From a virus, in IMG/VR virus record IMGVR_UViG_3300032322_001460, positions 1-64,000 of that record: DNA of 64,000 nt; one strand, given 5' to 3'. A model generated the notes under the pieces. It saw nothing but the letters and a program-made list of their open reading frames with translations, searched no databases and was not told where the DNA came from. Positions within the stretch are counted from its first letter, which is position 1, and each line of letters starts with the position of its first letter. The translations under genes were made by a program, and so were the position numbers. This document shows positions 2,302 to 47,600 of the stretch, in pieces.

Positions 2302-3138
2302 TTGACCAATGAATTTAAACCAGATCCTGTCCTTAGTGCAGAGATCGATCGAACATTTAAAAAAGATGAATACGAGCCTTTAGGTAAACCAGTTTACATT
2401 AAAAAAGAAACAGCACTAGACGCTATGGCAGGCGATGGCGGATATCAGGAAGCATATCTAGCAGATGTAATCCGCTTTAAGATGAAGCGTGATAACAAAC
2501 GTTTCTGGGCAGGTGACAACATCTCAGATTATGTTACTGAAGAAATGAAGCACAAGCTCATTGACGAGGCAACTGAAGCATTTGAATTAGTGCTAGATCG
2601 ATTGCTAATTGATCGCGAGAACGATCCTAACAGTCAGGGCACCGCACGTCGACTGGCTAAGATGTATTTTAATGAAATAATGAGTGGAAGATATGAACCA
2701 GCCCCAGATGCTACAGCGTTCCCAAATGATTCGCAGGACCGTTACGAAGGTATGCTTGTTGTTCGCAGTGAGCTTCGCAGTATGTGTAGCCATCATCACC
2801 AGCCCGTTAGTGGTGTTGCCTATATTGGCATTATTGCGGCTTCCAAGCTCATTGGACTCAGTAAGTACACAAGGATCGCCCAGTGGTGCGCCAGACGTGG
2901 TACTCTCCAGGAGGAACTTGCTAATGATATTGCTCGCGAGATCGCCAAGGCCACAGGAGCAAAAGACGTAGGCGTGTATGTACAGGCCACACATGGTTGC
3001 TGTGAGAATCGAGGTATAATGGCTCATAGTTCGTTGACTCAGACAACTGTGTTGATGGGCGCATTTAAAAACGATCAAAGTACAAAGAAAGAATTCTTTG
3101 ATAACATTAAACTACAACAGGACTTTGCTCCTAGATAA
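2302..3138 (+). CDS. folE: GTP cyclohydrolase I
   Basis: FolE converts GTP to 7,8-dihydroneopterin triphosphate, the entry step of folate and 7-deazaguanine synthesis. Zinc-ligand motifs are visible: C162 and H165 in SMCSHHHQP and C233 in HGCCENRG, together with GLSKYTRIAQW and LANDIA. The start is a TTG at 2302 after CGGAG at 2291-2295, giving 278 residues. That is longer than the usual 180-220 because of about 70 extra N-terminal residues; the next in-frame ATG is at codon 42. The usual QxQE segment reads RGTLQEELA here. With QueE and a possible QueD-like protein nearby, a preQ0-type pathway is likelier than folate synthesis. Confidence 0.93.
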   Translation: MTNEFKPDPVLSAEIDRTFKKDEYEPLGKPVYIKKETALDAMAGDGGYQEAYLADVIRFKMKRDNKRFWAGDNISDYVTEEMKHKLIDEATEAFELVLDRLLIDRENDPNSQGTARRLAKMYFNEIMSGRYEPAPDATAFPNDSQDRYEGMLVVRSELRSMCSHHHQPVSGVAYIGIIAASKLIGLSKYTRIAQWCARRGTLQEELANDIAREIAKATGAKDVGVYVQATHGCCENRGIMAHSSLTQTTVLMGAFKNDQSTKKEFFDNIKLQQDFAPR

Positions 3139-3141
3139 TCT

Positions 3142-3360
3142 ATGAATACTAACGAGTTAACTCAACAAATAATCGAACGTGCTAAAAATTTAAAAAAATT
3201 TGTAGTGCAAAGAGACTTTGATCAAATTCCTCCAGGAATCGTAAAATTTGATGTTCAGCACAGTCAAGGTGAGCTCGCTAGAATTTTTGTCCACGCTCTC
3301 ACTCAAGAAGAAGCAGAACAAATGGTTGACGAATGGTTTAGTGATGACACACCCGCTTAA
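3142..3360 (+). CDS. small acidic protein, unknown function
   Basis: Codes for 72 residues, MNTNELTQQIIERAKN to WFSDDTPA. It begins 3 bases after the folE stop and overlaps the next gene by 17 bases. The Shine-Dalgarno signal is weak, so translation may be coupled to folE. Two probable helices flank a central strand region (PGIVKFDVQ, ARIFVHAL). I recognise no family. Confidence 0.6.
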   Translation: MNTNELTQQIIERAKNLKKFVVQRDFDQIPPGIVKFDVQHSQGELARIFVHALTQEEAEQMVDEWFSDDTPA

Positions 3361-3781
3361 AGATGAACTGATGGTTCAGCAACAGTTACCGGCTACCGAT
3401 CGTCGAGAGCGGGCCTGGCAGCATATGGTCGCTGTTATTATGTTAAACCAGACCGGAAGAAAGGCAGTCAAATATGTGCTGCCTCTTTTCTTAGATCGTT
3501 GGCCAGGACCCGGAGAATTCCTTTGGACTATGGAAGATGAAGTCAAGGAAGTCATTTGGCCTTTGGGTATGTACAATGTCCGATTCCAAAGACTCAAAAG
3601 AATGACTGCGGACTTTTTGACTTGGGACGGAATTGATGCTAAAATGTTATATGGCATTGGCAAATACGGTTCAGATAGTTATGAAATCTTTTTTAAACAG
3701 AACTATACCGTTGAGCCTACAGATAAAGAACTGAAACGATACCTCGCAGAGGAGATTTTTAATGTTGTTGAAACTGCTTGA
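3344..3781 (+). CDS. MBD4-like HhH-GPD DNA glycosylase
   Basis: A 145-residue protein matching the glycosylase domain of eukaryotic MBD4 (which removes T or U opposite G) along its length: AWQHMVAVIMLNQTGRKA corresponds to the MBD4 helix containing LLIATIFLNRTSG, and the hairpin LYGIGKYGSDSYEIF corresponds to LHGIGKYGNDSYRIF. The expected catalytic aspartate is D127 in EPTDKELKRY. No methyl-CpG-binding domain and no iron-sulfur cysteine cluster are present, which separates it from endonuclease III. The ATG at 3344 lies in the previous gene; a second ATG at 3371 would shorten it by 9 residues. Likely roles are repair of deaminated bases or processing of modified phage or host DNA. The substrate cannot be read from sequence. 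Confidence 0.8.
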   Translation: MTHPLKDELMVQQQLPATDRRERAWQHMVAVIMLNQTGRKAVKYVLPLFLDRWPGPGEFLWTMEDEVKEVIWPLGMYNVRFQRLKRMTADFLTWDGIDAKMLYGIGKYGSDSYEIFFKQNYTVEPTDKELKRYLAEEIFNVVETA

Positions 3782-4238
3782 ACTACTGGGCCGTAAGCGT
3801 ATCATTTTTGATCGCGTACACAACGAACCGTATCTAGAACGGTATTATCTCTTTTTAAAAGAAAGAGAACGTTTTCCTTTCAATGTATTCTTACACAAGT
3901 TCTTGAAGGGCGATCCAGATGATGTTCACGATCATCCTTGGCCATATGCTACATTAATTTTGAAAGGTGGTTATTATGAATGGGTTCCGCAATTTGACGA
4001 ACAGGGCAATAAGTCTTGTGAGATACGTAAATGGAGAGGACCCGGCCATTTTCGTATATGTAGCCCTAACTCTTATCATCGTATTGAGCTTAAGCCTGGC
4101 GTAACAGCTTGGACATTGTTTATGCCCGGTCCTCATAAACGTGATTGGGGATTTTTAGTTAACAACAAATGGGTACAACACGAACAATATCTAAAGGAGA
4201 GATATGAACAAGCTCATAATCAAGCCACAAGAGCTTAA
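3762..4238 (+). CDS. cupin-fold protein
   Basis: A 158-residue protein with a single cupin-like metal site: H56 and H58 in HDHPWPYATLILKGGYYE, E73, and H106 in NSYHRIELKPG. These correspond to the HxH...E and later His of the cupin motifs, so a metal-dependent enzyme or sugar/small-molecule binding protein is likely. AGAGGAG precedes the start at 3762, which lies inside the end of the glycosylase gene. It overlaps the phosphoribosyltransferase gene by 35 bases. The substrate is unknown. Relatives in marine phages are usually annotated only as cupins. Confidence 0.7.
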   Translation: MLLKLLELLGRKRIIFDRVHNEPYLERYYLFLKERERFPFNVFLHKFLKGDPDDVHDHPWPYATLILKGGYYEWVPQFDEQGNKSCEIRKWRGPGHFRICSPNSYHRIELKPGVTAWTLFMPGPHKRDWGFLVNNKWVQHEQYLKERYEQAHNQATRA

Positions 4239-4797
4239 CGGATTAGTTTCTAAAATTTGTAGAGACATCTCTATCAGCAGCTGGAAGCCAGACTATGTAG
4301 TGGGATTAACTCGTGGCGGATTAATCCCTGCTGTTATGATCAGTCATTATTTTGGTGTTCCTTGCGAAACGTTAAAGGTCAGTTTACGTGATGGTAGCGA
4401 AACTGAAAGCAATTTGTGGATGGCCGAAGATGCCCTTGGAAAAGAAGAACATTCTATTTTTATCGAGGACGAAAATGATATCGGTGCTGTATTAGATGCT
4501 GCATCAAGTTTATTAGAAATGCCAAAACCTCCGTCGTATAAAAATATTCTCATCGTTGATGATATCAACGATACCGGTGCTACTTTTAATTGGGTAATGA
4601 ATGACTGGAAATCTAGTTGTTTTCCCGATAATCCTAACTGGAACGAAGTTTGGAATTTTAATGTAAAATTTTCTGTATTGGTAGATAATCTTGCCAGCCA
4701 GTGTGAAGTTAAAATGGATTATGTTGGTATGGAGATCAACAAGGCAGAAAACGATGTATGGGTAGATTTCCCGTGGGAAGATTGGTGGTTAAAATGA
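4204..4797 (+). CDS. type I phosphoribosyltransferase
   Basis: A 197-residue protein with the PRPP-binding signature ILIVDDINDTGAT at residues 115-127 and the early loop GLTRGGLIPAVMISHYFGVP at 34-53, both typical of purine (hypoxanthine/xanthine) phosphoribosyltransferases. It would join a nucleobase to PRPP to form a nucleotide. Compared with short family members it carries an extra acidic segment (residues 75-110) and a tryptophan-rich C-terminus ending FPWEDWWLK. It ends in an ATGA overlap with the HIT gene. The base specificity is unclear; salvage of host purines or of a deazapurine are both possible. Confidence 0.82.
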   Translation: MNKLIIKPQELNGLVSKICRDISISSWKPDYVVGLTRGGLIPAVMISHYFGVPCETLKVSLRDGSETESNLWMAEDALGKEEHSIFIEDENDIGAVLDAASSLLEMPKPPSYKNILIVDDINDTGATFNWVMNDWKSSCFPDNPNWNEVWNFNVKFSVLVDNLASQCEVKMDYVGMEINKAENDVWVDFPWEDWWLK

Positions 4798-5183
4798 ATG
4801 AAAAAATAATGAAAGATCAGTCTGACTTTATAGAAGACAGTCAAGCACCTTGGGATAATCTTGTAGAAGAAGATTATCATGTTAAAGTATTTGCGGACAA
4901 ATATCCAGTTACCGAAGGACATTTATTATTTGTACCTAAATATAATACAGTGTCTGTATTGATGGATGCATTCGAAAGTGCTGTACGTGATGGTATACGT
5001 ATGATCGAGGAAGGACAATGTGACGGTTTCAATATCGGATTTAATTACGGAAAGTCAGCAGGACAAACCGTAGGTTGGCCTCATGTGCATCTTATCCCAA
5101 GACGCACTGGAGATATGGAAGACCCGACAGGAGGCGTAAGACACGTCATCCCGGAAAAGGGAAATTATAGGAAATCAAAATGA
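4794..5183 (+). CDS. HIT family nucleotide hydrolase/transferase
   Basis: A 129-residue HIT-domain protein. The histidine triad is HVHLIPRR near residue 98, preceded by GHLLFVPKYN and NIGFNYGKSAGQTVGWP, and followed by TGDMEDPTGGVRHVIP. HIT proteins hydrolyse nucleoside phosphoramidates or dinucleoside polyphosphates. The ATG at 4794 overlaps the phosphoribosyltransferase stop (ATGA), so the two are probably translated together as a nucleotide-metabolism pair. A longer reading from 4758 would add 12 residues without a ribosome site. Confidence 0.85.
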   Translation: MNEKIMKDQSDFIEDSQAPWDNLVEEDYHVKVFADKYPVTEGHLLFVPKYNTVSVLMDAFESAVRDGIRMIEEGQCDGFNIGFNYGKSAGQTVGWPHVHLIPRRTGDMEDPTGGVRHVIPEKGNYRKSK

Positions 5184-5383
5184 GAAAAGAACTTATCGAT
5201 GCATTAAGATTGCACTTTAGCGCACACATCCGTAAACACAAGATGAATGTCGAAGTAATGTTAAAAAATCCCACGGCATTGCCGGACCATACTGATATTA
5301 TGGATGCTATAGAAAAAGAGATAGAGTTTATTGCAGAATATATGGATAAGTTGGAAGTTTTAGATAAACATTTCAACGATTGA
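5180..5383 (+). CDS. small conserved marine phage protein
   Basis: Codes for 67 residues, MRKELIDALRLHFSAHIRKHKMNVEVMLKNP to EVLDKHFND. AGGAAA precedes the ATG at 5180, which overlaps the HIT stop. It is predicted all-helical with charged faces. Proteins of this type (MRKELIDALR..H...HI.KH..NVEV) recur in T4-like cyanophages with no assigned function. Confidence 0.7.
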   Translation: MRKELIDALRLHFSAHIRKHKMNVEVMLKNPTALPDHTDIMDAIEKEIEFIAEYMDKLEVLDKHFND

Positions 5384-5401
5384 ATCCTTGAAAAATAATT
5401 A

Positions 5402-5623
5402 ATGAGAAAGTATATCATTGGTTTTATAGTTGCCTGTGTACTATGGGTACTGCTTCTTTCCACTATAGAAATACCAGAATACAAGATATATGATTGTGGT
5501 ATGGCAGAATGGCATCCCGATATTCCGCCTGCTGTAAAAGATGAGTGTAGAAATCGAAGAAAAAATGAAAAAGAAAATGAAAAACGCCTTTATGAAAACG
5601 GCAGAAATCTTCTCAGCACTTAG
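5402..5623 (+). CDS. small single-pass membrane protein
   Basis: Codes for 73 residues. Residues 5-22 (IIGFIVACVLWVLLLSTI) form one hydrophobic segment, preceded by a short basic N-terminus (MRKY) and followed by a YDCGMAEWHPDIPPAVKDEC motif with two cysteines and a charged tail. This suggests a membrane-anchored protein whose C-terminal part lies outside the membrane; the orientation is not certain. Similar short proteins with a YDC...WHPDIP motif occur in other marine phages. It overlaps the dCMP deaminase frame by up to 83 bases. Confidence 0.6.
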   Translation: MRKYIIGFIVACVLWVLLLSTIEIPEYKIYDCGMAEWHPDIPPAVKDECRNRRKNEKENEKRLYENGRNLLST

Positions 5624-6071
5624 TCATGCTCGCAGATTACACGTAGGTGCTATCATTGTTAAAGATGATAGAATTATTTCTATTGGCTATAATGGTATGC
5701 CTGCAGGTTGGGACAATAACTGTGAATATAAAGATTATATGAGCAGAGATGCCGGAGGCTGGCTTAATCCCGATGAAATCGAAGAGCGTTGGCAGTACTT
5801 AGAAGAAGATGGTACTAGATATACATTAAAAACTAAACCTGAAGTATTACACGCAGAAACAAATGCTATTGCTAAATTAGCTAAAAGTAACGAATCGGGT
5901 TCTGGTGCTGCTATGTTTATCACTCACAGTCCTTGCCTCGATTGCGCTAAACTTATCTATCAATCTGGTATCAATAGTGTATTCTATCGAGAAAGGTATC
6001 GTAGTGATGCCGGAATCGATTTTTTAATTAAATCAGGAGTTATCGTTGAAAAGTTGGACATTAACAGTTGA
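5541..6071 (+). CDS. cd: deoxycytidylate (dCMP) deaminase
   Basis: dCMP deaminase converts dCMP to dUMP, feeding thymidylate synthesis. The zinc and catalytic motifs are H104-A-E106 and P131-C132-L-D-C135, with the family segment HVGAIIVKDDRIISIGYNGMP at 34-54. The full reading is 176 residues; ATGs at 5565, 5577 and 5592 are equally possible starts, because the first 17 residues are a lysine-rich stretch overlapping the membrane-protein gene. Its length fits phage T4-type deaminases. It overlaps the next small gene by 26 bases. Confidence 0.92.
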   Translation: MSVEIEEKMKKKMKNAFMKTAEIFSALSHARRLHVGAIIVKDDRIISIGYNGMPAGWDNNCEYKDYMSRDAGGWLNPDEIEERWQYLEEDGTRYTLKTKPEVLHAETNAIAKLAKSNESGSGAAMFITHSPCLDCAKLIYQSGINSVFYRERYRSDAGIDFLIKSGVIVEKLDINS

Positions 6072-6210
6072 AGAAGATCCTAAAACAGGAGACAGTATCC
6101 TAACCTTCCCGCCCGAGCTTCTAGAAGAAGCAGGATGGAAAGAAGGGGATACATTAGAATGGATAGATTTAGGTGATGGCTCTTGGCAACTTCAAAAAAA
6201 GAATGTATAA
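6046..6210 (+). CDS. 54-residue AbrB/MazE-like protein with TTG start
   Basis: A short frame that begins with TTG at 6046, eight bases after AGGAG at 6034-6038, inside the 3' end of the dCMP deaminase gene, and ends with TAA at 6208-6210. It reads KSWTLTVEEDP, then SILTFPPELLEEAGWKEGD, then TLEWIDLGDGSWQLQKK. The pattern 'strand, P-x-E-LL-E-E-x-G-W-x-E-G-D-T-L-E-W, strand' matches the swapped-hairpin AbrB/MazE DNA-binding fold. I have seen similar small proteins in marine T4-like phages. It could be a transcription regulator; no toxin gene is next to it. Confidence 0.7.
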   Translation: MKSWTLTVEEDPKTGDSILTFPPELLEEAGWKEGDTLEWIDLGDGSWQLQKKNV

Positions 6211-6216
6211 TAAATT

Positions 6217-7068
6217 ATGGAAAAAATTAAACTAGCAGAGCTGTTTTACAGCATTCAAGGAGAAGGACGCTTTATGGGTGTTCCTTCTGTGTTTATGAGA
6301 ACATTCGGTTGTAACTTTAAGTGTGCCGGATTCGGCTTGCCTAAAGGAGAATCAACTACAGAGGTCGATCCTATTGCAGCTAATGTACATCTTTACAAAA
6401 GTTACGAAGAATTACCTTTGGTATCAACAGGATGCGACAGCTATGCTTCGTGGCATCCAGCATTTAAACATCTTAGTCCTTTTTATGCTCCCGAAGAAAT
6501 TGTAGAAAATATCATGAGCATACTTCCTTATAATCGTTGGGAAGATGAGCACTTAGTTATCACTGGAGGAGAGCCGTTGCTTAAATGGCAAAATATCTAC
6601 CCAGAACTATTAAATCATCCTAAGATGAAACATTTAAAAGAAATTACTTTTGAAACTAACGGTACTCAGAATCTTACTCCAGAATTTAAAAAATATCTAT
6701 TAGACTGGGGTGTTGAAAAAAGAGGTTATAGTAGATTAACATTTTCTGTAAGTGCAAAATTAAGCTGTAGTGGTGAAGAAAGATCTGTAGCTATCCGACC
6801 AGACGTTGTGTGCGAATATCAAGAAGTTGGATACACATATCTTAAATTTGTTATAGCCACAGAAGACGATGCTGAGGAAGCATTAGAAACTTTAGACATT
6901 TATCGTGCAGAGGGATTCACTGGTCCTTGTTATTTGATGCCTGTGGGCGGAGTAGAAAATGTTTATACATTAAATAATCGTCGTGTAGCAGAACTTGCTA
7001 TGAAAAATGGTCTAAGATACAGCGACCGATTGCAGGTGCCGTTATTTAAGAACGAGTGGGGAACTTAA
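6217..7068 (+). CDS. queE: 7-carboxy-7-deazaguanine synthase, radical SAM
   Basis: QueE rearranges 6-carboxytetrahydropterin to 7-carboxy-7-deazaguanine using SAM and a 4Fe-4S cluster. Visible are the substrate loop FYSIQGEGRFMGVPSVFMR, the cluster region GC32NFKC36AGFG, the SAM motif ITGGEPLLKW, and ETNGTQ. The usual CX3CX2C motif is incomplete: the third position is phenylalanine (F39). An insertion after it contains C73 in VSTGCDSYASW, a likely alternative ligand. The protein has 283 residues against about 220 in E. coli. It probably acts with the FolE and the possible QueD upstream. QueC is not in this window. Confidence 0.9.
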   Translation: MEKIKLAELFYSIQGEGRFMGVPSVFMRTFGCNFKCAGFGLPKGESTTEVDPIAANVHLYKSYEELPLVSTGCDSYASWHPAFKHLSPFYAPEEIVENIMSILPYNRWEDEHLVITGGEPLLKWQNIYPELLNHPKMKHLKEITFETNGTQNLTPEFKKYLLDWGVEKRGYSRLTFSVSAKLSCSGEERSVAIRPDVVCEYQEVGYTYLKFVIATEDDAEEALETLDIYRAEGFTGPCYLMPVGGVENVYTLNNRRVAELAMKNGLRYSDRLQVPLFKNEWGT

Positions 7069-7508
7069 TGCAAAAATTTATCAAAAAATTAATGGGATTG
7101 GATAAGCTAGAGGCATCAATACAAAAAGCCGAACAGGATCTAGCAGAGGCTAATCGACGTTTGGAAGAAGCAGAAAAATCGCAAAAATTAGCTCAAGAAC
7201 AAGAAGAACTAGCTAAACTAAATCCAAAAGATCGAGCTACTCGCAAGAAAGAACCGTGGGTTGGCGTATTGAACACTCACGTTAATCAAGATAATATTCG
7301 AAATGGATTCTTTGAACTTGACTGGAATGAGTATTTTGTGTTAAAATTAAAGCAAGACGGATATGGTGCAGACGGCGATAAGGAAGAAGAAATTGTTGAT
7401 CGTTGGTTCCGAGAACTTTGCGCAAACGTAGTTGTTGATGGAGACTACGGTGGTCCTGTGGAAACAGGTGTTATAGACATAAAAAGTGTGAAACGAAACA
7501 ACAAATGA
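7068..7508 (+). CDS. coiled-coil phage protein, unknown function
   Basis: A 146-residue protein whose ATG overlaps the queE stop (TAATG). Residues about 12-60 are a charged coiled coil (KLEASIQKAEQDLAEANRR, EEAEKSQKLAQEQEE). The C-terminal part, KKEPWVGVLNTHVNQDNIRN followed by FFELDWNEYFVLKLKQDGY, ends in a VVDGDYGGPVETGVIDIKSVKR tail. This C-terminal domain looks conserved among marine T4-like phages, but its role is unknown. The gene ends in an ATGA overlap with the nuclease gene. Confidence 0.7.
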   Translation: MQKFIKKLMGLDKLEASIQKAEQDLAEANRRLEEAEKSQKLAQEQEELAKLNPKDRATRKKEPWVGVLNTHVNQDNIRNGFFELDWNEYFVLKLKQDGYGADGDKEEEIVDRWFRELCANVVVDGDYGGPVETGVIDIKSVKRNNK

Positions 7509-8515
7509 CTTATATTTTAGTAGATACTGCTAACACTTTTTTCCGTGCAAGGCACGTTATCAATGGTGATGCCGATATTAAGCTCGGTATGGCGTTTCAT
7601 ATAACCTTAAATTCAATAAGAAAAGCGTGGCAACAGTTTAATGGTGGTCACGTTATCTTCTGTTTAGAAGGTCGCTCGTGGCGTAAGGACTATTATGCTC
7701 CTTACAAGCGCAATCGATCAGATGCCCGTGCTGCTCTAAATGAACGCGAGCAAGAAGAAGATCGCGTGTTCTGGGAAGCGTTTGATACATTCAAAGAGTT
7801 TATCACAGACAAAACTAACTGTACTGTGCTACAAAATCCGCAGTTAGAAGCAGACGATCTTATTGCTGGCTGGATACAAAGCCATCCTAGTGACAATCAT
7901 GTTATTATCAGTACTGATACAGATTTCGTTCAACTTATCTCTCCAAATGTCAAACAATATAACGGTGTAATGGAACACGTTATTACCCACGAAGGAATCT
8001 TTGATGACAAAGGTAAACCGGTCATTGATAAAAAGACAAAAGAAGCGAAGCCGGCACCTGATCCAGAATGGCTGTTGTTCGAAAAATGTATGCGTGGTGA
8101 TACCAGTGATAATGTCTTCTCGGCATATCCGGGTGTGCGTACTAAAGGCACAAGCAAAAAAGTGGGCCTTACTGAGGCGTTCGAAGATCGTAAAAGCAAA
8201 GGATATGCGTGGAACAATCTCATGCTACAGAGATGGACTGATCACGAAGGTAAAGAGCACCGAGTCCTCGAAGACTACGAACGAAATCGTCGTTTGATAG
8301 ATCTCAGTCATCAGCCAGACAACATCAAAGAAATAATTGCTAATACTATCGCCGAAGCTACTGGCGCAAACAAAAATATTAATCAGGTAGGTGTTAAACT
8401 TATGAAGTTTTGCGGACTGTACGATCTTAAAAAGATTTCTGAGCAGGCGCAAAGCTATGCGGAGCCATTGAATGCTAGATACAATATTAAAGAAGACCAC
8501 AGCTTGCCCGTTTGA
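7505..8515 (+). CDS. rnh: T4 RNase H-like 5'-3' nuclease (FEN family)
   Basis: A 336-residue 5' nuclease of the PIN/FEN superfamily, in the position and size range of T4 RNase H (305 residues), which removes RNA primers from lagging-strand fragments. Metal-binding acids are visible: D7 in LVDTANT, E55, E115-A-D117-D118 in QLEADDLIAG, D138-T-D140 in ISTDTDFVQL, and D199/D202 in MRGDTSDNV. The arch-region basic motif is WRKDYYAPYKRNRSDAR. A helix-hairpin-helix region follows (AYPGVRTKGTSKKVGL). No polymerase domain is attached. It belongs to the replication gene set. Confidence 0.88.
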   Translation: MTYILVDTANTFFRARHVINGDADIKLGMAFHITLNSIRKAWQQFNGGHVIFCLEGRSWRKDYYAPYKRNRSDARAALNEREQEEDRVFWEAFDTFKEFITDKTNCTVLQNPQLEADDLIAGWIQSHPSDNHVIISTDTDFVQLISPNVKQYNGVMEHVITHEGIFDDKGKPVIDKKTKEAKPAPDPEWLLFEKCMRGDTSDNVFSAYPGVRTKGTSKKVGLTEAFEDRKSKGYAWNNLMLQRWTDHEGKEHRVLEDYERNRRLIDLSHQPDNIKEIIANTIAEATGANKNINQVGVKLMKFCGLYDLKKISEQAQSYAEPLNARYNIKEDHSLPV

Positions 8516-8558
8516 TTTGAGCTGTGAATCTCGAACAGACACTTGTTGGGAGGAACCA

Positions 8559-9035
8559 ATGACAGACTTACACGCAAAGCCGATTATAGATAATAAGTTT
8601 TGGATAGTAGAAAAAAATGGAGAGAAGGTTGCTACTCTAAGAAAAGACGAAGATAACAGATTCGTTATGAGTAATCAATTAGGTATTAAAATCTACGACA
8701 ACAAAAAAAGTTTAACTGATCAATTCGGCAAAGATTTTTTTGTTGCTAAAATTCTACAAGAATCTCGATGTGCCCAACCTAACGAAATTCATGGTTATAG
8801 CTGTAGCACTTCTCCTCATAATGCCATGTTCGATATAAAAAGAAAACTTCCGTTGTTTACTAAAAGTGAAGATTCGAAAAGTTTATATTGTGCAGGCTAT
8901 TATGTTATTAAATTTGATAAAGGGTGGGTCAAAAGTTTTTGCCCTAAATTAATTACCTTACAAAGATACGAGTATCAAGGACCTTTTAAAACAGAAATTG
9001 AAATGAAACAGGTATTGTCAAATGTCTCTAAATAA
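8559..9035 (+). CDS. conserved marine T4-like phage protein, unknown function
   Basis: A 158-residue protein starting MTDLHAKPIIDNKFWIVEKNGEK. The start at 8559 is set by a strong GGGAGG at 8548-8553; a longer frame from 8472 would run far into the nuclease gene and has no ribosome site. The N-terminal KPIIDNKFWIVEKNGEKVATL is a two-strand motif I associate with a family common in marine T4-like phages. A central CAQPNEIHGYSCSTSPHNAMFDI segment carries two cysteines and two histidines that could form a metal site. It overlaps the next gene by 14 bases. Confidence 0.7.
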   Translation: MTDLHAKPIIDNKFWIVEKNGEKVATLRKDEDNRFVMSNQLGIKIYDNKKSLTDQFGKDFFVAKILQESRCAQPNEIHGYSCSTSPHNAMFDIKRKLPLFTKSEDSKSLYCAGYYVIKFDKGWVKSFCPKLITLQRYEYQGPFKTEIEMKQVLSNVSK

Positions 9036-9270
9036 TATTCCAAATAATCTAGCTTCTGTTGAAAAACTACTGCAACGAGTTAATTCAGCAGAAAAATCCA
9101 ACCAAAAAGAAATCAGGATGACTATACAAGAAGCTAGAGAACTAAGTAATGAACTTGCTCTAATAACTTCTAAATTGGGCAAAACTGTTCAAGAAATACA
9201 TCAAATGTTATCTGAAGTACGAGATTCTACTACCAAAATCGATGTTAAATTTGATGGCGGTGCTTTCTAA
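9022..9270 (+). CDS. small helical protein, unknown function
   Basis: Codes for 82 residues, MSLNNIPNNLASVEKLLQRVNS to DVKFDGGAF. It is almost entirely helical, with heptad-like leucine/isoleucine spacing (MTIQEARELSNELALITSKLG, VQEIHQMLSEV), so it probably forms a coiled-coil oligomer. Its start lies in the previous gene. It ends 4 bases before the late promoter box at 9275. Confidence 0.6.
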   Translation: MSLNNIPNNLASVEKLLQRVNSAEKSNQKEIRMTIQEARELSNELALITSKLGKTVQEIHQMLSEVRDSTTKIDVKFDGGAF

Positions 9271-9274
9271 AAGA

Positions 9275-9282
9275 TATAAATA
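9275..9282 (+). promoter_or_regulatory. T4-type late promoter
   Basis: An exact TATAAATA, the T4 late promoter -10 element recognised by gp55. The predicted transcript start is about 9288-9290, roughly 28 bases before the ATG at 9317. The left arm of an inverted repeat (9283-9290) begins immediately after the box. Confidence 0.8.
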
Positions 9283-9312
9283 TATACGTGCTTAATTATT
9301 AGGACACGTATA
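9283..9312 (+). promoter_or_regulatory. inverted repeat over the leader of a late gene (possible RBS-masking hairpin)
   Basis: TATACGTG at 9283-9290 is an exact inverted repeat of CACGTATA at 9305-9312, with a 14-base loop that holds the AGGA ribosome site (9301-9304) for the ATG at 9317. RNA reading through from upstream would contain both arms. RNA started at the late promoter would lack most of the left arm. Confidence 0.65.
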
Positions 9313-9316
9313 GAAA

Positions 9317-9601
9317 ATGAGTAGACCAAAACCTCGAGTAATACTCGAGTATGCAAACAAAGAAAATTTTAAAGTAGAACAAATCTTAGATAGTGAAGCT
9401 ATCTGGGCGGTATTCTACAAAGGTAAGCCTTTTAATCTAAAAAGCGGCAGTCTTGTTTCAAGTTATCCCGGCCCTAAATACAAAAAAGTAAGTTTTTCAA
9501 ATCCTGGTCATGCACATAATTTAGCAAAAAAATTGAATAGAATTTTTAAGACCTCAGATTTTTCAGTTTATAAACTTACCGACGGCGAAGAACTAAAATA
9601 A
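9317..9601 (+). CDS. conserved small late protein, unknown function
   Basis: Codes for 94 residues beginning MSRPKPRVILEYANKENFKVEQIL. The pattern SEAIWAVFYKGKPFNLK, YPGPKYKKVSFSNPGHAHNLAKKLN is one I know from T4-like cyanophages, without an assigned role. A consensus late promoter 42 bases upstream and a hairpin over its leader point to expression late in infection. Basic overall; nucleic-acid binding is possible but not shown. Confidence 0.75.
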   Translation: MSRPKPRVILEYANKENFKVEQILDSEAIWAVFYKGKPFNLKSGSLVSSYPGPKYKKVSFSNPGHAHNLAKKLNRIFKTSDFSVYKLTDGEELK

Positions 9602-9602
9602 A

Positions 9603-10004
9603 ATGGACAGAAAGGATACCTATACACAGGTATTTTTAAAGACCGGTGGCGAGTCGTACGACGAAGCAGCTATAAAAAAATTTAGATCGATCTGGTGGCA
9701 AAATAATCGAGAAAAAAATAGCGGCGGCCTAAGGATAACTGAAAGTTGTCTAAACTTCATAGAAAATCAAGCAAAAATAAAAACCTATAAAATAGATTTT
9801 CCCAAAGACTTAACTATCGGACCACAAGTTTTAATTTGGTTAGATCAATTTATAGAATCTCCTTTTTATCTAGAAAAAAAATTTATCAAAGTTTTAACAG
9901 AAAAAGCAGCATTTGAACTCTATTTGTTTTCAGGTGATGTGAGGAAAATGGGTAGTTCAAAAGCTCTTGCCAAGAGATTAAACCAAGAATTAGCTTCACA
10001 ATAA
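9603..10004 (+). CDS. conserved phage protein, unknown function
   Basis: A 133-residue protein, MDRKDTYTQVFLKTGGESYDEA to LAKRLNQELASQ, starting 1 base after the preceding stop. It is lysine-rich and predicted mixed alpha/beta. The C-terminal segment SGDVRKMGSSKALAKRLNQ resembles the GHAHNLAKKLN segment at the end of the preceding protein, so the two may share a short fold element. No enzyme motif is seen. It is probably cotranscribed from the late promoter at 9275. Confidence 0.65.
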   Translation: MDRKDTYTQVFLKTGGESYDEAAIKKFRSIWWQNNREKNSGGLRITESCLNFIENQAKIKTYKIDFPKDLTIGPQVLIWLDQFIESPFYLEKKFIKVLTEKAAFELYLFSGDVRKMGSSKALAKRLNQELASQ

Positions 10005-10027: not shown

Positions 10028-10303
10028 ATGTTAGATCTAAATCCATTAGATGTTCTGAATAATAGATTTTTAAAATTTATGCCTCCTCATTTTGCTAAAA
10101 TGAGATTGTCCAAAGTTGATTTTCAAATTAACGAAATCAAAGATTGGATAGACGTAAAGTGTAAAAATAGATATTCAATTTCACGTTTACCACAGATCGA
10201 CGATAACGGAAAATTAAATATCAACATCTTTGTTGGATTCGAAGATCACAAAGAATTAACATTTTTTATGCTCGGATGCCCGTTTATAAGGAGAAACCAA
10301 TGA
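10028..10303 (+). CDS. small protein, unknown function
   Basis: Codes for 91 residues (MLDLNPLDVLNNRFLKFMPPHFAKMRLSK to CPFIRRNQ). The first ATG lies at the expected start point of the late promoter at 10013 and has no ribosome site; ATGs at 10079 and 10100 are alternatives and also lack a strong site. Its C-terminal part shows alternating strands (YSISRLPQIDD, LNINIFVGFED, LTFFMLGCPF). It ends in an ATGA overlap with the next gene. No family recognised. Confidence 0.55.
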   Translation: MLDLNPLDVLNNRFLKFMPPHFAKMRLSKVDFQINEIKDWIDVKCKNRYSISRLPQIDDNGKLNINIFVGFEDHKELTFFMLGCPFIRRNQ

Positions 10304-27630: not shown

Positions 27631-28487
27631 ATTAATTCCATTAGCATATCTTTATTCCTGATAATACTTTGTTTGTTCATAACATGAATATCAGTGTTTA
27701 AAATTTTTGCAGATTTATAGTTTCCGTCATCGTGCGGATTCATTAAAATTATCATCTTTCCTGTATTATCAACTTCTAATAAAATATCTTTATCTAAAAC
27801 AGAAGTTATAGGAGGAAGATTGTAAACGTTTTCAATCTCATAACCGCTCAATATATGTTTGGCAATACTAAAGGCAATATCATTTCTAAACTGTGATGGA
27901 TTAAATCTAAAAAGGTCAGCAAAATAAACATAATTTAATTTTATAAATTCTACTAATTTAAAGAAAAAATCGCTTTCTTTATTTTTTTTAAACATAACCG
28001 TAGTGGCCCACAATAAAGGAATACTTGATTCAGAAATTCTTTTATCAAGATATCCCGGACGATCTTCTAAGATGTCATTTATAGAATCACCAATCATCAC
28101 ACTGGATTCAACATTCCAGTATTCATTTAATCTATCAGTGAAAATTAAAAAATCGCTATCTATTAATAACGTGTTATCATAAGGGCTTAAAGAATAAGCA
28201 TCGCATCTATTAGAATTTAAAAACGGTACAGTTTGATGATGGAATCCATCATAAAGTTTTCTCGTGTTTTCTGTATAAGGGTATTCTATTTCTATAATTT
28301 TTTCAAAAACATCGTTTAATTTTTTCTCTAATCCAGCCGTTTTTAACCATGATAAAGTTCCGCTATCTGTCACTAATGATGCAGGTACCTTAAGATTTTT
28401 TTTGGCTAGGCCTCCAGATATTATTGCCAGTGTGCCGTAATCAATAAAAGGACTGTTATGAGCAAAAATTAGTACGCCGTTATTCAT
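27627..28487 (-). CDS. GT8-like GT-A glycosyltransferase
   Basis: A 286-residue protein, MNNGVLIFAHNSPFIDYGTLA. The DxD is in YDNTLLIDSDFLIFTDRL (near residue 113), with KVPASLVTDSGTLSWLK before it and FRNDIAFSIAKHILSGYE after. It probably shares an ancestor with the 26785-27630 protein, but the two are clearly diverged and may use different donors. The ends overlap by 4 bases on both sides. Confidence 0.68.
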   Translation of the reverse strand: MNNGVLIFAHNSPFIDYGTLAIISGGLAKKNLKVPASLVTDSGTLSWLKTAGLEKKLNDVFEKIIEIEYPYTENTRKLYDGFHHQTVPFLNSNRCDAYSLSPYDNTLLIDSDFLIFTDRLNEYWNVESSVMIGDSINDILEDRPGYLDKRISESSIPLLWATTVMFKKNKESDFFFKLVEFIKLNYVYFADLFRFNPSQFRNDIAFSIAKHILSGYEIENVYNLPPITSVLDKDILLEVDNTGKMIILMNPHDDGNYKSAKILNTDIHVMNKQSIIRNKDMLMELI

Positions 28488-28834
28488 AGTTCTAAAAGTT
28501 TTTCCAATGAACGAGTTTTCTTTACTTTTTCATATTCTTTATAATATTCTAAAGTAGAAGTAAAATATCTATCTAATATTTCATTTTTAAAATCTTCTAA
28601 ATCATTAATCAAAATTGGATTATTATTAGAATCTAAAATAGGAACATCGTTTTTTCTGCCATTATTGATAAGCATATCAACAAAAGTTATTAACGACATA
28701 TCTATTTTAAATATACCGCCGCTATAGCCATAGGTAAGCCTAGCTTCATTTTTTTCTTTTAAAATTTTTCGTTGAATTGAAAATGTGTGCCTAAAATTAG
28801 AAAAATCTAAGGCTTTTCGAAGACGTTCATCCAT
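28484..28834 (-). CDS. conserved small marine T4-like protein
   Basis: A 116-residue protein, MDERLRKALDFSNFRHTFSIQ to RSLEKLLEL. AAAGG precedes the ATG. The pattern LxKALDFSNxR, GGIFKIDMSLITFVDMLINNG and a C-terminal YFTSTLEYYKEYEKVKK helix recurs in T4-like cyanophages with no known function. It is the first gene of the minus-strand accessory cluster, next to the tail-fibre block, so it may belong functionally to the virion genes. Confidence 0.7.
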   Translation of the reverse strand: MDERLRKALDFSNFRHTFSIQRKILKEKNEARLTYGYSGGIFKIDMSLITFVDMLINNGRKNDVPILDSNNNPILINDLEDFKNEILDRYFTSTLEYYKEYEKVKKTRSLEKLLEL

Positions 28835-28851
28835 TCTTATCCCTTTAATTA

Positions 28852-28877
28852 AAGTAGCACATTATTTAGTGCCACTT
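28852..28877 (-). promoter_or_regulatory. hairpin with a late-promoter-like box in its loop
   Basis: On the minus strand AAGTGGCAC (28877-28869) can pair with GTGCTACTT (28860-28852), with one G-U pair, around an 8-base loop TAAATAAT. The sequence ACTAAATA (28870-28863) matches TATAAATA at 6 of 8 positions. It lies in the 60-base gap between the fibre gene and the accessory cluster. It could be a weak terminator, a processing site, or a late promoter; no long U-tract follows. Confidence 0.35.
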
Positions 28878-28894
28878 AAATTAAGGTCAAAGAA

Positions 28895-38685: not shown

Positions 38686-38693
38686 TATTTATT
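38686..38693 (-). promoter_or_regulatory. late promoter-like box overlapping the end of the giant gene
   Basis: Minus-strand AATAAATA, 7 of 8 positions of TATAAATA, overlapping the stop codon of the 4872-residue gene. The predicted start point is about 38678-38680, which supports the downstream ATG at 38660. Confidence 0.55.
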
Positions 38694-41600
38694 CGGGCAA
38701 CTCCGTAGTCTTTTGCGACAAGAATATCGCGATCGAGGTGTTATTTTCTAACAAACTCTGCCCAGTTGTCGCTGTTGTTTGTCCTCGATCGTACCAAGAT
38801 TTTCCGGTTCTACGAATTATTGTGATTCTAGTTCCTACTTTTACTGGCTCCGAAAGTCTCACGTAATTTGAGTCTCCGTCAACACTAAATTCTGCCTGTA
38901 TAGTTTCATCGGCTAACGGGCTTGACGGTCCTAACTCTTCTTTATAGATTGTGATAGGATCTTTTCTTAATCTTGTACCGCCTACAAATACTTCTACCTG
39001 ATCACACGGACCGTATTCTTTAGGAATACCTGATATTCCAGTATCTCTAAACCAAGAATTTCTAGTTGATTTACTAGGAACATAAGGTAACGGTCCTATT
39101 AACAACGTACTACCGTCACTGATAAAATTATCTTTATCTTGAGATTCAACATAAGGTATATTCTCAGAAGATCCTAAATTAATTACATGACTGCCCTGTT
39201 CATGCACTGTAGCAATAGCTGTGCCAAAACTTCCCCTTCTAAGTTGAGATAAAGTATTTCCGCTCAATGACAAGTATTCAATCTTTTCTCCGTTGATTTC
39301 GATAATTCCAGGAATGTTCCTCGAAGCTATCGGAATTGAAAGATTAGATGCATCAGTTACTTTTATAGATTGATCATAATAATTTAAGTCTTGAGCTAAT
39401 TTGACATTTCGATCGATCGAATAACGCTTATAATAATAGACGTTCAACATATCTTTGAATATCTGATATGCTGAAGATTTTTTATAAATCCTATTACCAA
39501 ATTGGAAGATTTTAATTTTATCCGATACGGTAGTTTCATCATTTAGATATAAAACTGCTCTAGGTAACGATACCGAATAATCTTTATTTCCAGTTAATCT
39601 TACACCGTTCTTGTAAACCCAGACATAACTAGAATTAATAGGAGGAGCAGATAATCGATAGATCGATTTACCTCCAGTATATTCATCACTGATAATATCA
39701 AATGTTGGGTATTCGCTGAACCATGTTACTGTAATAGAATCTCCAGAATTTAAACTTACAGAATCACTTATTACAATATCATTATTAACAATGCTATACT
39801 CGCACCTTACATCAGTTTCAACTTTGATTATATCACCTATTTGAAGATAAGAGGTTGAAACTGTAACTACACTAGTAGTACCATTATAAGTCCAAGCAAC
39901 TAAAAATGATTGTTCTACATTATTAATAAAAACTTTAATGTTATTAGAAGTGATGGTTCCGGAAATTTCGATAGGATCTACCCCTACTGTCAGTGTGTTG
40001 TTTGTGCCATTGTATACCTGAACTACTGTATCAACTCCTTGTAAAAGTACAGAATTGACCTCCACTAACATAGCAGATCTAGAACTATTTCTTGTTAAGT
40101 TTACAAACTTATCAAGATCAAATCGACGAATGCTTCCGTCATAAGTGAATGTCTGTTGATTAGATCGAATCACAGATTGCTGAGTACTATCAGTATCTAA
40201 AGAAGATCCTAATACCACAATCTTAACGACTTGACTTAATTCTGGACGTGACCCAAATTCTACTAAAGTCTTTCCTGAAGTTTCTGTAACTGTCGAACTT
40301 TCAACAAATCCAATATCTACTTCAATACCATCTACAGTGACTAGTACTGATTGGGTATCGGAGTAATTAGCCTTGGTAAGGAAATGAGAAGTTTCACCGT
40401 CTGCTGTAAATTCGGTATAATCTAAAATCGATACGCCGCCAACACCGATCGAAATAATTTCAATTAACGAGCCAGCGACTGGAGCATCGTTAAATTCTAT
40501 TTGATTAGTCGAATAATTTATATTATAGATTATGCTGCTTGTTTCAATAAAATCTTGTTTGACTTTATCTACGTAAACAGCAAGGGATTCACCTTCTAAT
40601 ATATGTAATCCTATATCAAAATTCTTCTGTGTACCATCAGCAAAATATAATCTTAAATTAATAGGAGATGCCCCAGTAAAGGTTGAATTAAAAACTTTAA
40701 TACTAAGACTTTCTAATACCTGTCCAGGAACATTTTCTTCTGGGGCAGGTACTTGATCAGGATCTATTAATTTTCCTCCATCAATTGAAATATCTTGTGC
40801 TAATGTGCCCTGAGCAGTTGAATAGGAACCAGCCACAACATTAGAACCTGTTAGGTTATCGGTCCAAGTTCCTGCAAAAGATCCTCCGCTAATTTCTGTA
40901 TCTAGAAGATTAGGATCTTTAATCGAAACTGTACCATCACTTTCAAAATTTCTAAATATTAAAGTATCGCCAGAGAAAGTCTGTATTCCGTACTCATCAA
41001 ACACTACTGTTCTGTTTTCTCCATCGCCGATAAATGTAGGCATTAGTGCATTTTCTGGGGCAGTGGTTCTACCATTAGGCATCACTGTGCTACCATCGTA
41101 CATTCCATAATAAGGATCGTCAATTCTGATAGGAGTCGGTTCAGCAACTGCTTCATCATAAACTACTACCGGATTTCCATTTATATCTAATGTCTCGATA
41201 GATCTTAATTCTTTAGATCCGGCACGTTTTAGATATATTGACACACGCTGACCCTCAGCAGGAGCAGTCGGTAATAAAACCGTTATGGTACTACCGTCAT
41301 TGGAGCTAGGAACAATAAAATGATAATCATTGTTAGATTCTACACTATCCCACCCATCAGTAAACCATGGCAGAGCATCCCAACCGCCGCTGACATCAAA
41401 TGTCGTTCCTTGAATTTGGACGCCACCATAATCTATTCCTGTCATTAATTGACTAACAACTTTACCTTTCATTCCTTCTGCAGGATTATAATAAGCATTT
41501 ATTCTATTAACACTATCGTAGATTTCATTAGATTTTTCATAAACAACATCGATTAAATCACCTTGCTCAAGTTGAATTAAAAATTTAATTTTAGCCTTGG

Positions 41601-44600
41601 TCAACGAATAAGTGTCTGTTGTAGAAGTATAATAAACAATTTCATACTCATTATTAAAAACAATCTGCCCATTTCTCGTAATTGATATCTTACTTTTATT
41701 TTTGTTAGGGGCATATTTTAAATCAAATATAGACGAAGATGTTGTAGCAACAAATGTCTGTGAAAAATTAAATTCAGATAAAACTCCGTTTCTACTTATT
41801 CTATCAAATTTTAATCTCACATCAAAAGTTCTTATCGGAGATTCACCTAAAATCGCTACCGCTTTAGCAATGTTATTGTTAAATCCGTTGCCTCCTACTA
41901 AAGAAATTGTAGGAGCTTTGGTGTAACCTTTTCCACCCGATATCAACTTAATAGATCTTACTTGTTTGTTCGATATAAATGCTATAGCTTCTGCGCCTTC
42001 TCCGTCACCTTCTATTAATACTTTAGGTACGGTAGTATAACCTTCTCCTTTAGAAGAAATAACAATTTCTTTAATTTCAAATCCTAAATTATCTTTCCAA
42101 TGTTTCCAAGGATATTGATCTGTTAAATCATAAGAGCTGTTAATTGGTAAAATTTTTCCGCTCGCTGTGGAATACGACGGAGGTAAATCAAAATCAGTTA
42201 ACACTGAGTTATCTATATCAACGTTAGTATATCTACTTGTATATTGCCTAATTGTTGTACGATATGGTTTAACTTCTTCTACATAATTTCTAAAACTATC
42301 TAGGCTATCATTTTTATAATTAACTTTCTGCTCTAAAGATCCAACATTATGAGTTGCATTCAAGAAACTTGTCTTAAATGCCCAGTCAATATATTCTTGC
42401 TCTGAGAAAGCATATCTTAATGAAATAAAGAATAAATTATTCCACTCGTTTCTTAAATCTTCTATAAAAATATCTTGTTTAACTGCATTTAAAATATTTC
42501 TCAATTCTAAAGATGGCAATAAATCATATTCACTCGTGTCATAAGAACTAGTTGCATCAAATCCTAATACTTGAGATTCTTTACTATATAATTTTGTAGA
42601 TAACTCAATAGTTCCATTTTGCCTTCCGACTAATTTGTAATTGGTTAGAATATCGCCCTCGCCTTCTTTAACTTTAACAATTAATGCCCAGCCGCCTGTT
42701 CCAAATTCTTTAATTTTTAATAAGTCGCCTTCTTGTATAGATAAAGAACTTTCTTCATAGAGAGCTGTTATTTCTTTGCCGATTCTAGAAGTTTTAGAAT
42801 ATCCTTTTTCATACCAGTCGATCTTTGACCAATATTTGGTAGTGTCGTATCCTTGAGATTCACTTCTAAAGAAATCTTTTCTTATGTTATCATAAGAATA
42901 TACACTCCAGAAATTATTAGCGGTTTCATCACTGTTTACTAAAACTGCATAACTTCTTACTTTTGCTATCGCCGAAGTATATTTTTTTCCTTTAGAAAGA
43001 ACTGTAACGGAATTTATTCTTCCTTGGTTGTCTATCGTTAATACTGCTTTAGCTCCGGATCCGTCGCCTTCTATTTCAATTGGCGGAACTACCTTATAGC
43101 CAAATCCGGGATCTGCGATATCAATCGTATCAACTTCCGAATCTACTATATTCACGTTCAGGATAGCTTGTTTAATTCTAACGGTATTGACATTTTGTAA
43201 ATCGATAAAGTTTTCTACTTCTTCGTCAAATACATTTGAGCTTTGTTCAGGTTTCAAATCTACTAAATTTAGATTTCGATAATTTAATGTATCTGCAAAA
43301 GGACGAAGTAATAGATGTTCGTTAATTCTATCAATTATTATAGATAAAATCTTATTATTATCCTTAAACATTCCCTGCCTTGGTCTAAAAGACAGACCAT
43401 ATCGTTGCTTTGCAGGAATTTTAGGATCCGGAACAGAATTTCCGGCCTGATCAAATCCAACTAAACTATCAATCCATTTTGCTTCGATATCTTGATTCGG
43501 AATACTGCCTATTAAATTTTCCGATAACAACATATATTCCGAGTGGCTTAGATTATTGGATTTTTTAGTTTTTCTATATTGAATATTTAGATACGCACTA
43601 TCATTCTTTAATAAAGAATTAAAATTGTAAGCTAAAAATTTATCAGAATCCATTAATGCTACAATCGGTAATCCCGATAACGACGGATTAATAATCAAAG
43701 ATGCTACATCCGATGAAGGTAGTCTTCTTCCTATTACGTCGCTCGGCAATAATGATTTATTTTTAACCCAGAAATAATATCTAGTTCCAGTTAACTGTCC
43801 TGTGTTTACGTTATAAATTTCTTTAACACTATAAACAGTATTATCATTATGTAAAGGTTGTCCCGAAATTCCTTCGGCTAATCCCTCGTTCGTATCGGCA
43901 AGTACACTCCAATCGGAAGGTAGTATCGGAGATTCGACCCATTCGTATATGTCGATCGACGATCCATATGCCAAGGCATTCCAATTTCCTGATCTAAAAA
44001 CATCATCGCCTTGTTCATAATCTATCCATTTTACAGCAGATAAATCCCACCACAACTTGCCTACATTTTTTTCAAACCATGCTGTAGTTTCATCTACTAC
44101 CTGTTCATCGGTTCCATTAGTATAAACCGCAGGGTCGTAAACTGTTTTAAAACTTAATTCTTGTTCAGCTATTCCTAAAATTTTTAATTTTGCATGATCT
44201 ATTATGTCAACATCTGCTAATTTAGTATTTGTAACTTCGTCATAGACTTCTATTGAAGTTAGAAGATCGATATCAACTTTCTGTGTTTGCTGAGCTAATG
44301 TATTCCAAGAATTTACGTTAGGATCTTTTCTAAATATCCGTGTTATTCCTATTGGATGAGAACTTAATATCTGTCCTGTGGTTTCTAGAGGAGCTCTATA
44401 ATTAGGAGAACCTACAACGATCACTGAACCAAAGGTATCAATACTATAACCAAAAGATTCGGCATTTTGCAGATCAGCTTCTAATTTTTCTGCTAATAGA
44501 TATATGTTAGATTTCTTTTCAAACACATATGTTTGTCCAGTGTATCCTTGTGGCTCACTGAAACTAGTAGCATTACCGTCGAAAGTGGTTCCAACCGAGA

Positions 44601-47600
44601 TATCAAATCTCACAGGAATTTTGTAAGGAGCATTTTTAGCACCTACAACAATTTTTTCAGCATTGTAATCAACACTGACAGAAAATCCAAATTGTTCGTT
44701 ATTATAAGATTCGTAGCTGGTAATTTTCTGATCGAGATTATATATAGGAGAATCTAAATCAGTAGTTGAGAATACGTACACAGATCCTTGATTTTGTAAA
44801 TTGCTATCAGCATCTGGGCTTGAAACTACTAAGGTAGATCCTGATTCATCTAAATCTAAACTAAACCCGAATTTATCTCCGGAATAAATTCCTATATCTA
44901 ATCCAGAATCTGTATTATTATAATTTTCTATATTTTCAGAAGTAATAACTTGAATCAAATTATAAACTTCATTTTGATCTCTTTTATAGATATGAATTTT
45001 TCCAGAACTAACTGTGCTAAGATTTTCAATATGTAACCAAGGCGTTAAATTCGATAACGTAGATTCTGTTATCCCAGGAACCGGGACATCGCCTTTACTT
45101 ACAATAGACGAGTCAACTGGGCCGGGCTCGGAGGTGTCCATTAGTCTATAATAATTTCCGTCATATTGAACTACATCAGACTCTGTATATTCTTGGAACT
45201 GACTCCACACTCCTCTATAATTTACAAAAAATTGTCCGTCGCTGTTCGGAGATCCTACAACTAAAATACTACCATCTTTGTTCATTGCTAGGCTAGATCC
45301 AAACAGATCTCCAGCTTTAATCAATTCTGCTATTTGATTCTTGTCTAATAGTCCCTCTGCTAAAGTAGACCCGTCGTCACCTAAAGCAACATTAGTCGGC
45401 AGTGAACATTGGGTAGATATAGCATCTAATTCGATCCAATCATTCAATCCTAAATCTAAGGAGCTTCCGTCGTCACTTAAATCTGTATCTACCAATGCTT
45501 TCCACAGTTTGTTATCCCACCATACTATACTACCGGCCGGATAAAATTTAACATTACTCGCTGTTTCGAAAGCTCCTGTATAGGGATTATATCCTCCGTT
45601 GGGATTAAATACTCCTCTATAATTAATATCCTCTAAGTGTCTCCACCCTTTGGTTACTCTTTCTCTATACACTATAGATAATGTAGCCCCTGTTCCGTAT
45701 GAAGGTTCTACTGTAGTACTTGCAGGGGAGGTACGAATCGTTGTGAACTTTCCTCTATTGATAGGTTCAACTGAAATCACTTCACCTGCAGAAATAGTAG
45801 CAGCAAATGTAGCACTCTGTCCTTCATAATTAACCGTTAATACCGATGCTCCAACATCTATTTCTCTAAATGTTAATCTTAAAATACATCCTGAACTTAG
45901 CGTTGATCCGTCTGAACTAAAAGTCGGGTCGGCGGTCGCTATTAAAGGACCGTCGGGAAGAATATTCCATAACCCTCTATCCAATGGAGTTACTGTCTTA
46001 ATCGGAAACAACAAATCGACGTCTCCGGGAACTAGGGTTTCAGTGTCAACCGTTGCAGAAAAAGTTGCTGTTTGTCCTAGATAACTAACAGATAAAATCA
46101 CTCCGGAAGAATCTACATTATAATTAGATCCTGGTTCAACTATTTCAACATCAGCAATTTCGTAAACTGAATATCCAGAACCGGCAGTTACTACAGAAGC
46201 ACTGTCAACTTCTTGCACTGTTTCGTTATCATAAACATAAAGATAAACTCTGCCTCTACTTTCTAAGGATCCAGGTGCAGAAATAGATAGATAATACTTG
46301 TCTCCACTTTGACCTACAGAAATCGCATTACCGAATAATTCATCGGCAGCAGGTCTAGGACTAACTATCGAAATGAATTCAATCCACCTGTTAGATTCAA
46401 ATTTATAAATTGTTACCATTCCCTGATTATTATAACCAGGCAATCTACCAGTAGAGTTAGCTTCAACTATTGTTACTGGTTCCCAATCTACTGAGTAGAT
46501 ATTAATATATGAAGAATCTACAGGAACATCACCATTTCGTATCTGTTCAAGGGTCGGAGCGGAAAGATTTCCCGGAACATCTGTAATTGCCTTCCACAGT
46601 TTACCGTTATATATTACTATTTCGCTAGCAAAATAATCCTGTCTAGGATCAAATTCTCCCATAAACTTACTTTTTATGTAACTAGCATTAGGTGATCCAA
46701 CAATTAAAAATTGACCGTCTGGTGTTGCTGCAACTGCTGATCCGAATACTCGAGACAATTGACTTCTAAATTCGCTAGGAGAAGGAATTATCTGATAAAG
46801 CTCTAAGCCTCTGGATGTTTCTACATAAGAATAAAGATAGCCAGTAGCAGGCATACTACTAATAATTTGTTTTAAACTATTAATATATAAAACTGCTGTA
46901 CCGCTACCGACAGGTTCTTGAATACCGTATTCTATAAGATTTTTATAAGAATATGATTTTTGTTTTTGAATTACTTCCCATCGATCATTCTGATCATTAT
47001 CTATCCATAATTTAGTATCTTTTTTCAGTGCTGCCACTTCACTAAGATCTAAAGTATTATAACTATTAATTCGAGACGATATTAACAAGTTTATTGTTTG
47101 TATGGCACTATCATCAATAGCTGGTTGATCACTGTCTTCTCTTTTTTCAACTATAATCGATCTGGCTGTTTTAGACTTTACAAAAAAGAATCCTTCTAAG
47201 TCAATGATGTTCCTTAAACCTACTATATCATTTTCTTGTATATCGTGAACTCTGTTGAATCTTATTTCTACTTCGAGGTCAAGCAATTCGACTACAGATT
47301 CAATAATCAATAAAGGTTGATTTTCAAATCTTAATACATTCCAACTTTGGTCATCATAGGTGATCCATATATAATTGTTTTCTTTTACAAGATTTATATC
47401 TAAATCTAAAATTTCATTTTTATTTTTAACAACAAAATCAACCTGATCAGGTCTAACATAACCCGAAAGTCTAGAACTTGGTTCGTAATATTTTGTAGGA
47501 TTAATATTTGTAGTAAAAAATCCTTCAGCAGCTTTTGTAATATTATTAGAATTAATTCTATATTTCTGATCTGTTTTAACATCGGTGAGTTGTTCGTCAA

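Follow-up and report, generated by a model that had tools for sequence, protein, structure and literature searches.

A late promoter joined to a hairpin that may mask early read-through RNA in a jumbo-phage clade

A gene for a 94-residue protein in an uncultured virus, lying downstream of what appear to be early genes, is very probably kept silent early in infection and turned on late according to where its RNA begins. RNA reading through from upstream would carry both arms of a hairpin, whose stem and inner helix would engage the Shine-Dalgarno sequence and the nucleotides between it and the AUG, making 30S loading inefficient. Late in infection the host RNA polymerase, carrying a gp55-type sigma factor of the phage, would start about 6 nt past the late promoter motif, within the 5' arm. 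Such an RNA would be short of most of that arm, the hairpin would be lost or weakened, and the gene would be translated. The promoter, the sigma gene, the paired arms, their covariation and the way in which the predicted mask changes with the RNA start were established from sequence, and together they support a T4-style masking interpretation of the hairpin.

In T4, read-through RNAs of genes e, soc, 49 and I-TevI are masked and poorly translated, and the late RNAs start inside the mask and are translated (PMC3014915; PMC2988022). This switch has so far been documented in a few genes of T-even and Aeromonas phages. The same logic now appears in jumbo phages that are distant, widespread and for the most part uncultured, and comparison of well over a hundred relatives supports it strongly. 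It offers a route from sequence to those phage genes that must not be expressed early, and it marks a widely conserved 94-aa protein of the clade as strictly timed.

The promoter, the hairpin and their surroundings

The window, by which we mean the whole stretch of 64,000 nt analysed, comes from an IMG/VR record that is a 67,941-base virus fragment. An exact match to the T4-type late promoter, TATAAATA, occupies 9275-9282 (+) and directly adjoins the hairpin. A sequence-only reading of this DNA had described an 8-bp perfect inverted repeat after the promoter, at 9283-9290 and 9305-9312, and direct reading confirms both: the 5' arm TATACGTG (9283-9290) is the perfect complement of the 3' arm CACGTATA (9305-9312), which lies between the Shine-Dalgarno sequence and the ATG. 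The start codon does follow four bases beyond the repeat, as that reading had it, with the spacer GAAA at 9313-9316 and the ATG at 9317-9319. The AGGA that it had placed in the loop CTTAATTATTAGGA (9291-9304) is present at 9301-9304, 12 nt from the AUG, but the picture needs refinement: the predicted fold contains a further helix of 5 bp inside the hairpin (9291-9295/9299-9303), in which the AGG of the Shine-Dalgarno sequence is itself paired, and little of the 14-nt "loop" therefore stays open. The read-through leader folds at -11.5 kcal/mol.

When the 34-nt stretch was shuffled 100,000 times with dinucleotides preserved, 0.45% of the shuffles contained a perfect repeat of at least 8 bp anywhere, and 0.10% had one beginning exactly at the promoter end. 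No terminator-like site, with the G+C-rich stem and T run of an intrinsic terminator, was found on the + strand at 9283-9320, and an Rfam covariance-model search of 8700-10000 gave no match at E<=1.

A gp55-type late sigma gene runs from 63316 (+) to the end of the window at 64000, and to 64083 of the record, with matches to phrog_12791 (E 1.7e-83) and to phrog_234, the family of T4 gp55 (E 2.3e-26). TATAAATA occurs twice in the window, against 12.6 expected. Each of the five ATAAATA sites in the 64 kb closely precedes a gene, and three of them are on the structural strand. The window and G001, a 188-kb relative, together contain 35 copies of ATAAATA, whereas the other permutations of its letters average 187; 77% of the ATAAATA sites lie at gene starts, compared with 11% for the permuted motifs. 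Being depleted overall and enriched at gene starts, ATAAATA bears the signature of an avoided, functional motif.

The gene predicted to be controlled is the 94-aa ORF at 9317-9601 (+). More than 200 contigs encode relatives of its product, as do the jumbo phages PA5oct, Atu_ph07, SCTP-2 and Phosso. All four of these phages also encode a gp55-type sigma factor, as do several other contigs tested, the remainder being fragments without a match. The relatives came from a protein search; a DNA-level search of annotated phages for the locus returned nothing, and no contigs matched the SCTP-2 protein as query. The 94-aa protein has no match in Pfam, PHROG or PDB. Its AlphaFold model is an alpha/beta fold (pLDDT 90) that has no significant match among solved PDB structures, and its viral fold matches are uncharacterised.

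The + strand upstream carries genes for GTP cyclohydrolase I, a QueE-like protein, a dCMP deaminase and a 5'-3' exonuclease, followed by small genes of unknown function. Those at 6217-9270, including the QueE-like radical SAM protein and the exonuclease, are tightly packed on the same strand, and the last of them stops at 9270, 5 nt before the promoter. A sigma-70-like promoter at 6183-6211 (+; TTGGCA-17-TATAAT, 11/12 by consensus match only) could be the source of early read-through RNA, and no terminator-like sites were found on the + strand from 6284 to the late promoter. On the - strand, structural genes begin at about 12 kb and include baseplate wedge and fibre-like proteins. The GTP cyclohydrolase I and QueE-like genes (window 2302-7068) suggest 7-deazaguanine DNA modification.

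Conservation and covariation of the hairpin

Variable loop length made plain MAFFT misalign the 3' arm. The covariation counts therefore come from a covariance-model alignment, a kind that is biased in favour of the structure. In such an alignment of 82 leaders, 96.4% of the stem cells are paired and five of the eight pairs have changed on both sides; all shuffles and slid registers score below the real stem on paired cells and on covariation score. An arm-swap test that uses no alignment showed that 5' arms pair best with their own 3' segments when compared with those of other arm classes, and none of 20,000 permutations did as well. Among the 81 leaders that keep the fourth pair, its state (A-U or G-C) requires 13 changes on the coding-sequence tree, at least five of these on well-supported branches.

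The 5' arm abuts the late promoter throughout the main group of relatives. Elsewhere the arms have been replaced with the same logic, as in ATCATAC/GTATGAT (L051), CTACGCA/TGCGTAG (L053) and ACTGTGCA/TGCACAGT (L263). The pairing ACTCAT/ATGAGT in L220 and L230 involves the AUG itself, the 5' arm lies upstream of the promoter in L212, L191 and L160, and in some lineages the promoter is enclosed in the loop.

These replacements bear on whether the hairpin could instead be the site at which a protein represses translation, be it the 94-aa product or some other protein of phage or host. T4 gp43 and gp32 repress translation of their own messages, and their operators, like the element here, are leader RNA structures near the start site. 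The loop UUAAUUAAGGA and the arm sequence are fairly conserved within the main group, and a hairpin that forms without protein could still be used by one. The gp43 and gp32 operators, however, require the bound protein, have a fixed hairpin sequence and contain no promoter. Here, rather than a conserved sequence-specific RNA element, we find arms and loops that are wholly different in the lineages with ACTCAT/ATGAGT, ATCATAC/GTATGAT or the promoter in the loop, with the geometry, that is the position relative to promoter and start, retained. Nor would an operator need its 5' arm to abut the late promoter across the main group. We therefore regard a protein site as unlikely.

The inverted repeat might also act as DNA, as a palindromic operator or a downstream promoter element, with the RNA hairpin incidental. 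It does adjoin the promoter directly, and some relatives have further sequences resembling ACGTAGTTAA at more distant upstream positions. Against this, loop length and arm sequence vary while complementarity is kept, and some lineages pair the AUG or the Shine-Dalgarno sequence with a distant arm instead. G-U pairs, found in 4-5 sequences at two of the pairs, fit an RNA helix and not a DNA palindrome, and most other late promoters have no such repeat. A DNA role is accordingly very improbable, and masking of the ribosome site in RNA remains the preferred reading of the hairpin.

Many relatives have a second element, resembling ACGTAGNTAAC, 20-40 nt upstream of ATAAATA, which looks like the 5' arm and loop of the hairpin (L076-L079, L107, L189, L202 and L250).

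Opening of the start region and its dependence on the RNA start

T4 late RNAs begin about 6 nt past the motif, across a range of roughly 0 to +6. If the same rule applies here, the late RNA is predicted to start at G9288, with G9290 possible (9288-9290, +), and the 5' arm at 9283-9290 should be missing from it or shortened in it. We infer from this rule the actual 5' end; that a read-through RNA is made, when it is made and how translation responds are likewise inferred.

The cost of opening the start region (-15 to +3) was computed with free-RNA energies at 37 C. The read-through RNA of the window costs 13.3 kcal/mol to open; by RNA start, the values are 13.5 from 9283, 9.7 from 9286, 6.6 from 9288 and 3.3 kcal/mol from 9290. 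The sequence-only reading had proposed folding the leaders of both RNAs; the expected difference is seen, with the qualification that RNA from G9288 keeps a weaker residual hairpin, which is what the 6.6 kcal/mol opens. Calculation and covariation agree that read-through RNA can sequester the Shine-Dalgarno sequence, the AUG or both, and by calculation the late RNA retains too little of the 5' arm to form the structure, though in the window itself the release is partial.

For 134 distinct leaders of relatives the median cost is 10.1 kcal/mol on read-through RNA against 3.05 on late RNA. The difference of 7.05 compares with 1.5 in shuffled leaders, and in 90 of the 134 at most one of 60 shuffles reaches the observed difference. 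When 163 distinct leaders are considered, the median cost falls from 9.05 with the start at -1 to 2.81 with the start at +6; 142 of them are masked, being costly on read-through and cheap from the predicted late start, and a strong predicted mask is missing in 21. The great majority of relatives have their predicted late start within the 5' arm.

One unmasked relative is PA5oct (L082, 4860-5001), where a strong, bidirectional-looking terminator, AAAAACCCTGTATAGTCTATACAGGGTTTTT, stands just upstream of the promoter; it is a possible other way to stop read-through. A terminator as a general replacement for the mask in unmasked relatives is not claimed: the overall association (4/21 against 3/142, p = 0.006) rests largely on one related group.

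The dependence on start position also bears on the suggestion that the functional RNA is transcribed from upstream of 9283 and begins with the hairpin, which would protect it against decay or be processed by an RNase. Hairpins near 5' ends can stabilise RNA, and cleavage within this one would free the start site too. The T4 late start rule, however, places the start inside the arm, and with an upstream start the hairpin would also block the gene's own late translation, at the cost given above for 9283. This makes such a role about as improbable as one in DNA. That the helix aids translation by carrying a remote Shine-Dalgarno sequence close to the AUG, for which the above-ideal 12-nt spacing in the window might speak, is barely credible. 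In T4 genes 25 and 38 the helix is contained entirely within the interval from the Shine-Dalgarno sequence to the AUG (PMC3014915); the 5' arm of the hairpin described here precedes the Shine-Dalgarno sequence, and many relatives have shorter spacings, near 7-9 nt.

The masking reading can be compared with T4 directly. The claim that the geometry is that of T4 holds for genes e and 49 in the same calculation, where the cost falls from 14.8-16.8 to 1.6-4.1 kcal/mol for e and from 16.3 to 3.4 for 49. Gene soc shows only a small change, from 8.0 to 6.5. Since soc is a documented case, the opening measure must be coarse and conservative, and the residual 6.6 of the window is not disqualifying.

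T4 gene 49 (endonuclease VII) has a similar arrangement, with AATAAATA followed at once by the 5' arm, the Shine-Dalgarno sequence in the loop or 3' arm and the ATG a few bases on, although it is a different gene of unrelated sequence in a distant phage clade. In gene e (lysozyme) the long early RNA is masked and the late RNA, begun at TATAAATA within the structure, is open (PMC3014915). The types here that come closest to it have the promoter within the structure (L212, L191, L075 and the family F2, the last two described below). Gene e differs in being a lysis gene with two late promoters and in having been demonstrated experimentally, whereas the switch here is predicted from sequence and calculation. 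Gene soc, too, is a late gene with a masking hairpin, set, as the gene here appears to be, in an early region, and its late RNA has a similar residual cost, but by the opening measure its mask is weak, and the gene is unrelated. I-TevI, I-TevII, I-TevIII, segB and Aeh1 mobE likewise have a hairpin over the ribosome-binding site on upstream-initiated RNA and a late promoter so positioned that the late RNA cannot form it (PMC2988022); these are, however, homing endonuclease genes of T-even and Aeromonas phages.

Masks and leaders of other late genes

Other leadered late promoters of the clade are mostly without a mask (median difference 1.6, against 7.7 for this gene), which makes the mask gene-specific. 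In nine contigs, 13 of 61 other late promoters nevertheless exceed 6 kcal/mol, where 2.1 would be expected, and these cluster in families. A covariance-model search of the window and G001 gave no convincing second copy of the hairpin, so the other masks were found by energy and not by sequence. At least three masked gene families, F2, F3 and F4, were identified in addition to that of the 94-aa protein.

F2 is masked in five contigs, this window included, where it is represented by a 116-aa gene at 28484-28834 (-). In the predicted RNA fold its promoter, CTAAATA (28869-28863), lies in the top or loop of a hairpin at 28842-28886 (-), whose 3' arm covers the Shine-Dalgarno sequence AAAGG. The fold has an energy of -32.5 kcal/mol, and the opening cost is 14.2 on read-through RNA and 5.1 kcal/mol on late RNA. 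In F3 the repeat ATAGTAT...ATACTAT directly follows ATAAATA in six contigs. F4 consists of proteins with an Mtd_N domain; in L075 (9690-9830) and L068 (4960-5100) the promoter occupies the loop of a long hairpin and AGGAG is hidden, and the cost falls from 21.1 to 1.8 and from 19.8 to 3.8 kcal/mol, respectively.

We consider it somewhat probable that the late-promoter mask is a general device in this jumbo-phage clade that has been rebuilt repeatedly, since it occurs in at least four unrelated gene families and the lineages of a single gene vary the pairing partner (Shine-Dalgarno sequence, AUG or promoter in loop). If different partners reach the same start-dependent switch, selection would act on the logic and not on the sequence.

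The F2 gene in G001 and G003 (L269, L290) has no late motif and carries a sigma-70-like TTGACA promoter instead.

A different arrangement of late promoters was also observed. The pattern ATAAATA-N4..6-ATG occurs 48 times in 17 clade contigs (G000-G016), where the reversed pattern is seen 7 times; PA5oct, Atu_ph07, SCTP-2 and T4 show no enrichment of it. With the late promoter 4-8 nt before the ATG, the late RNA would be leaderless or nearly so. Close-spaced late promoters are found in the window at 38692 (-) and 10014 (+). In the structural region a single 4,872-aa ORF (38689-53307, -) immediately precedes, on the same strand, a late gene of the leaderless type. For the 91-aa gene at 10028, all 34 loci in the main group of relatives keep the promoter-ATG distance of 4-8 nt.
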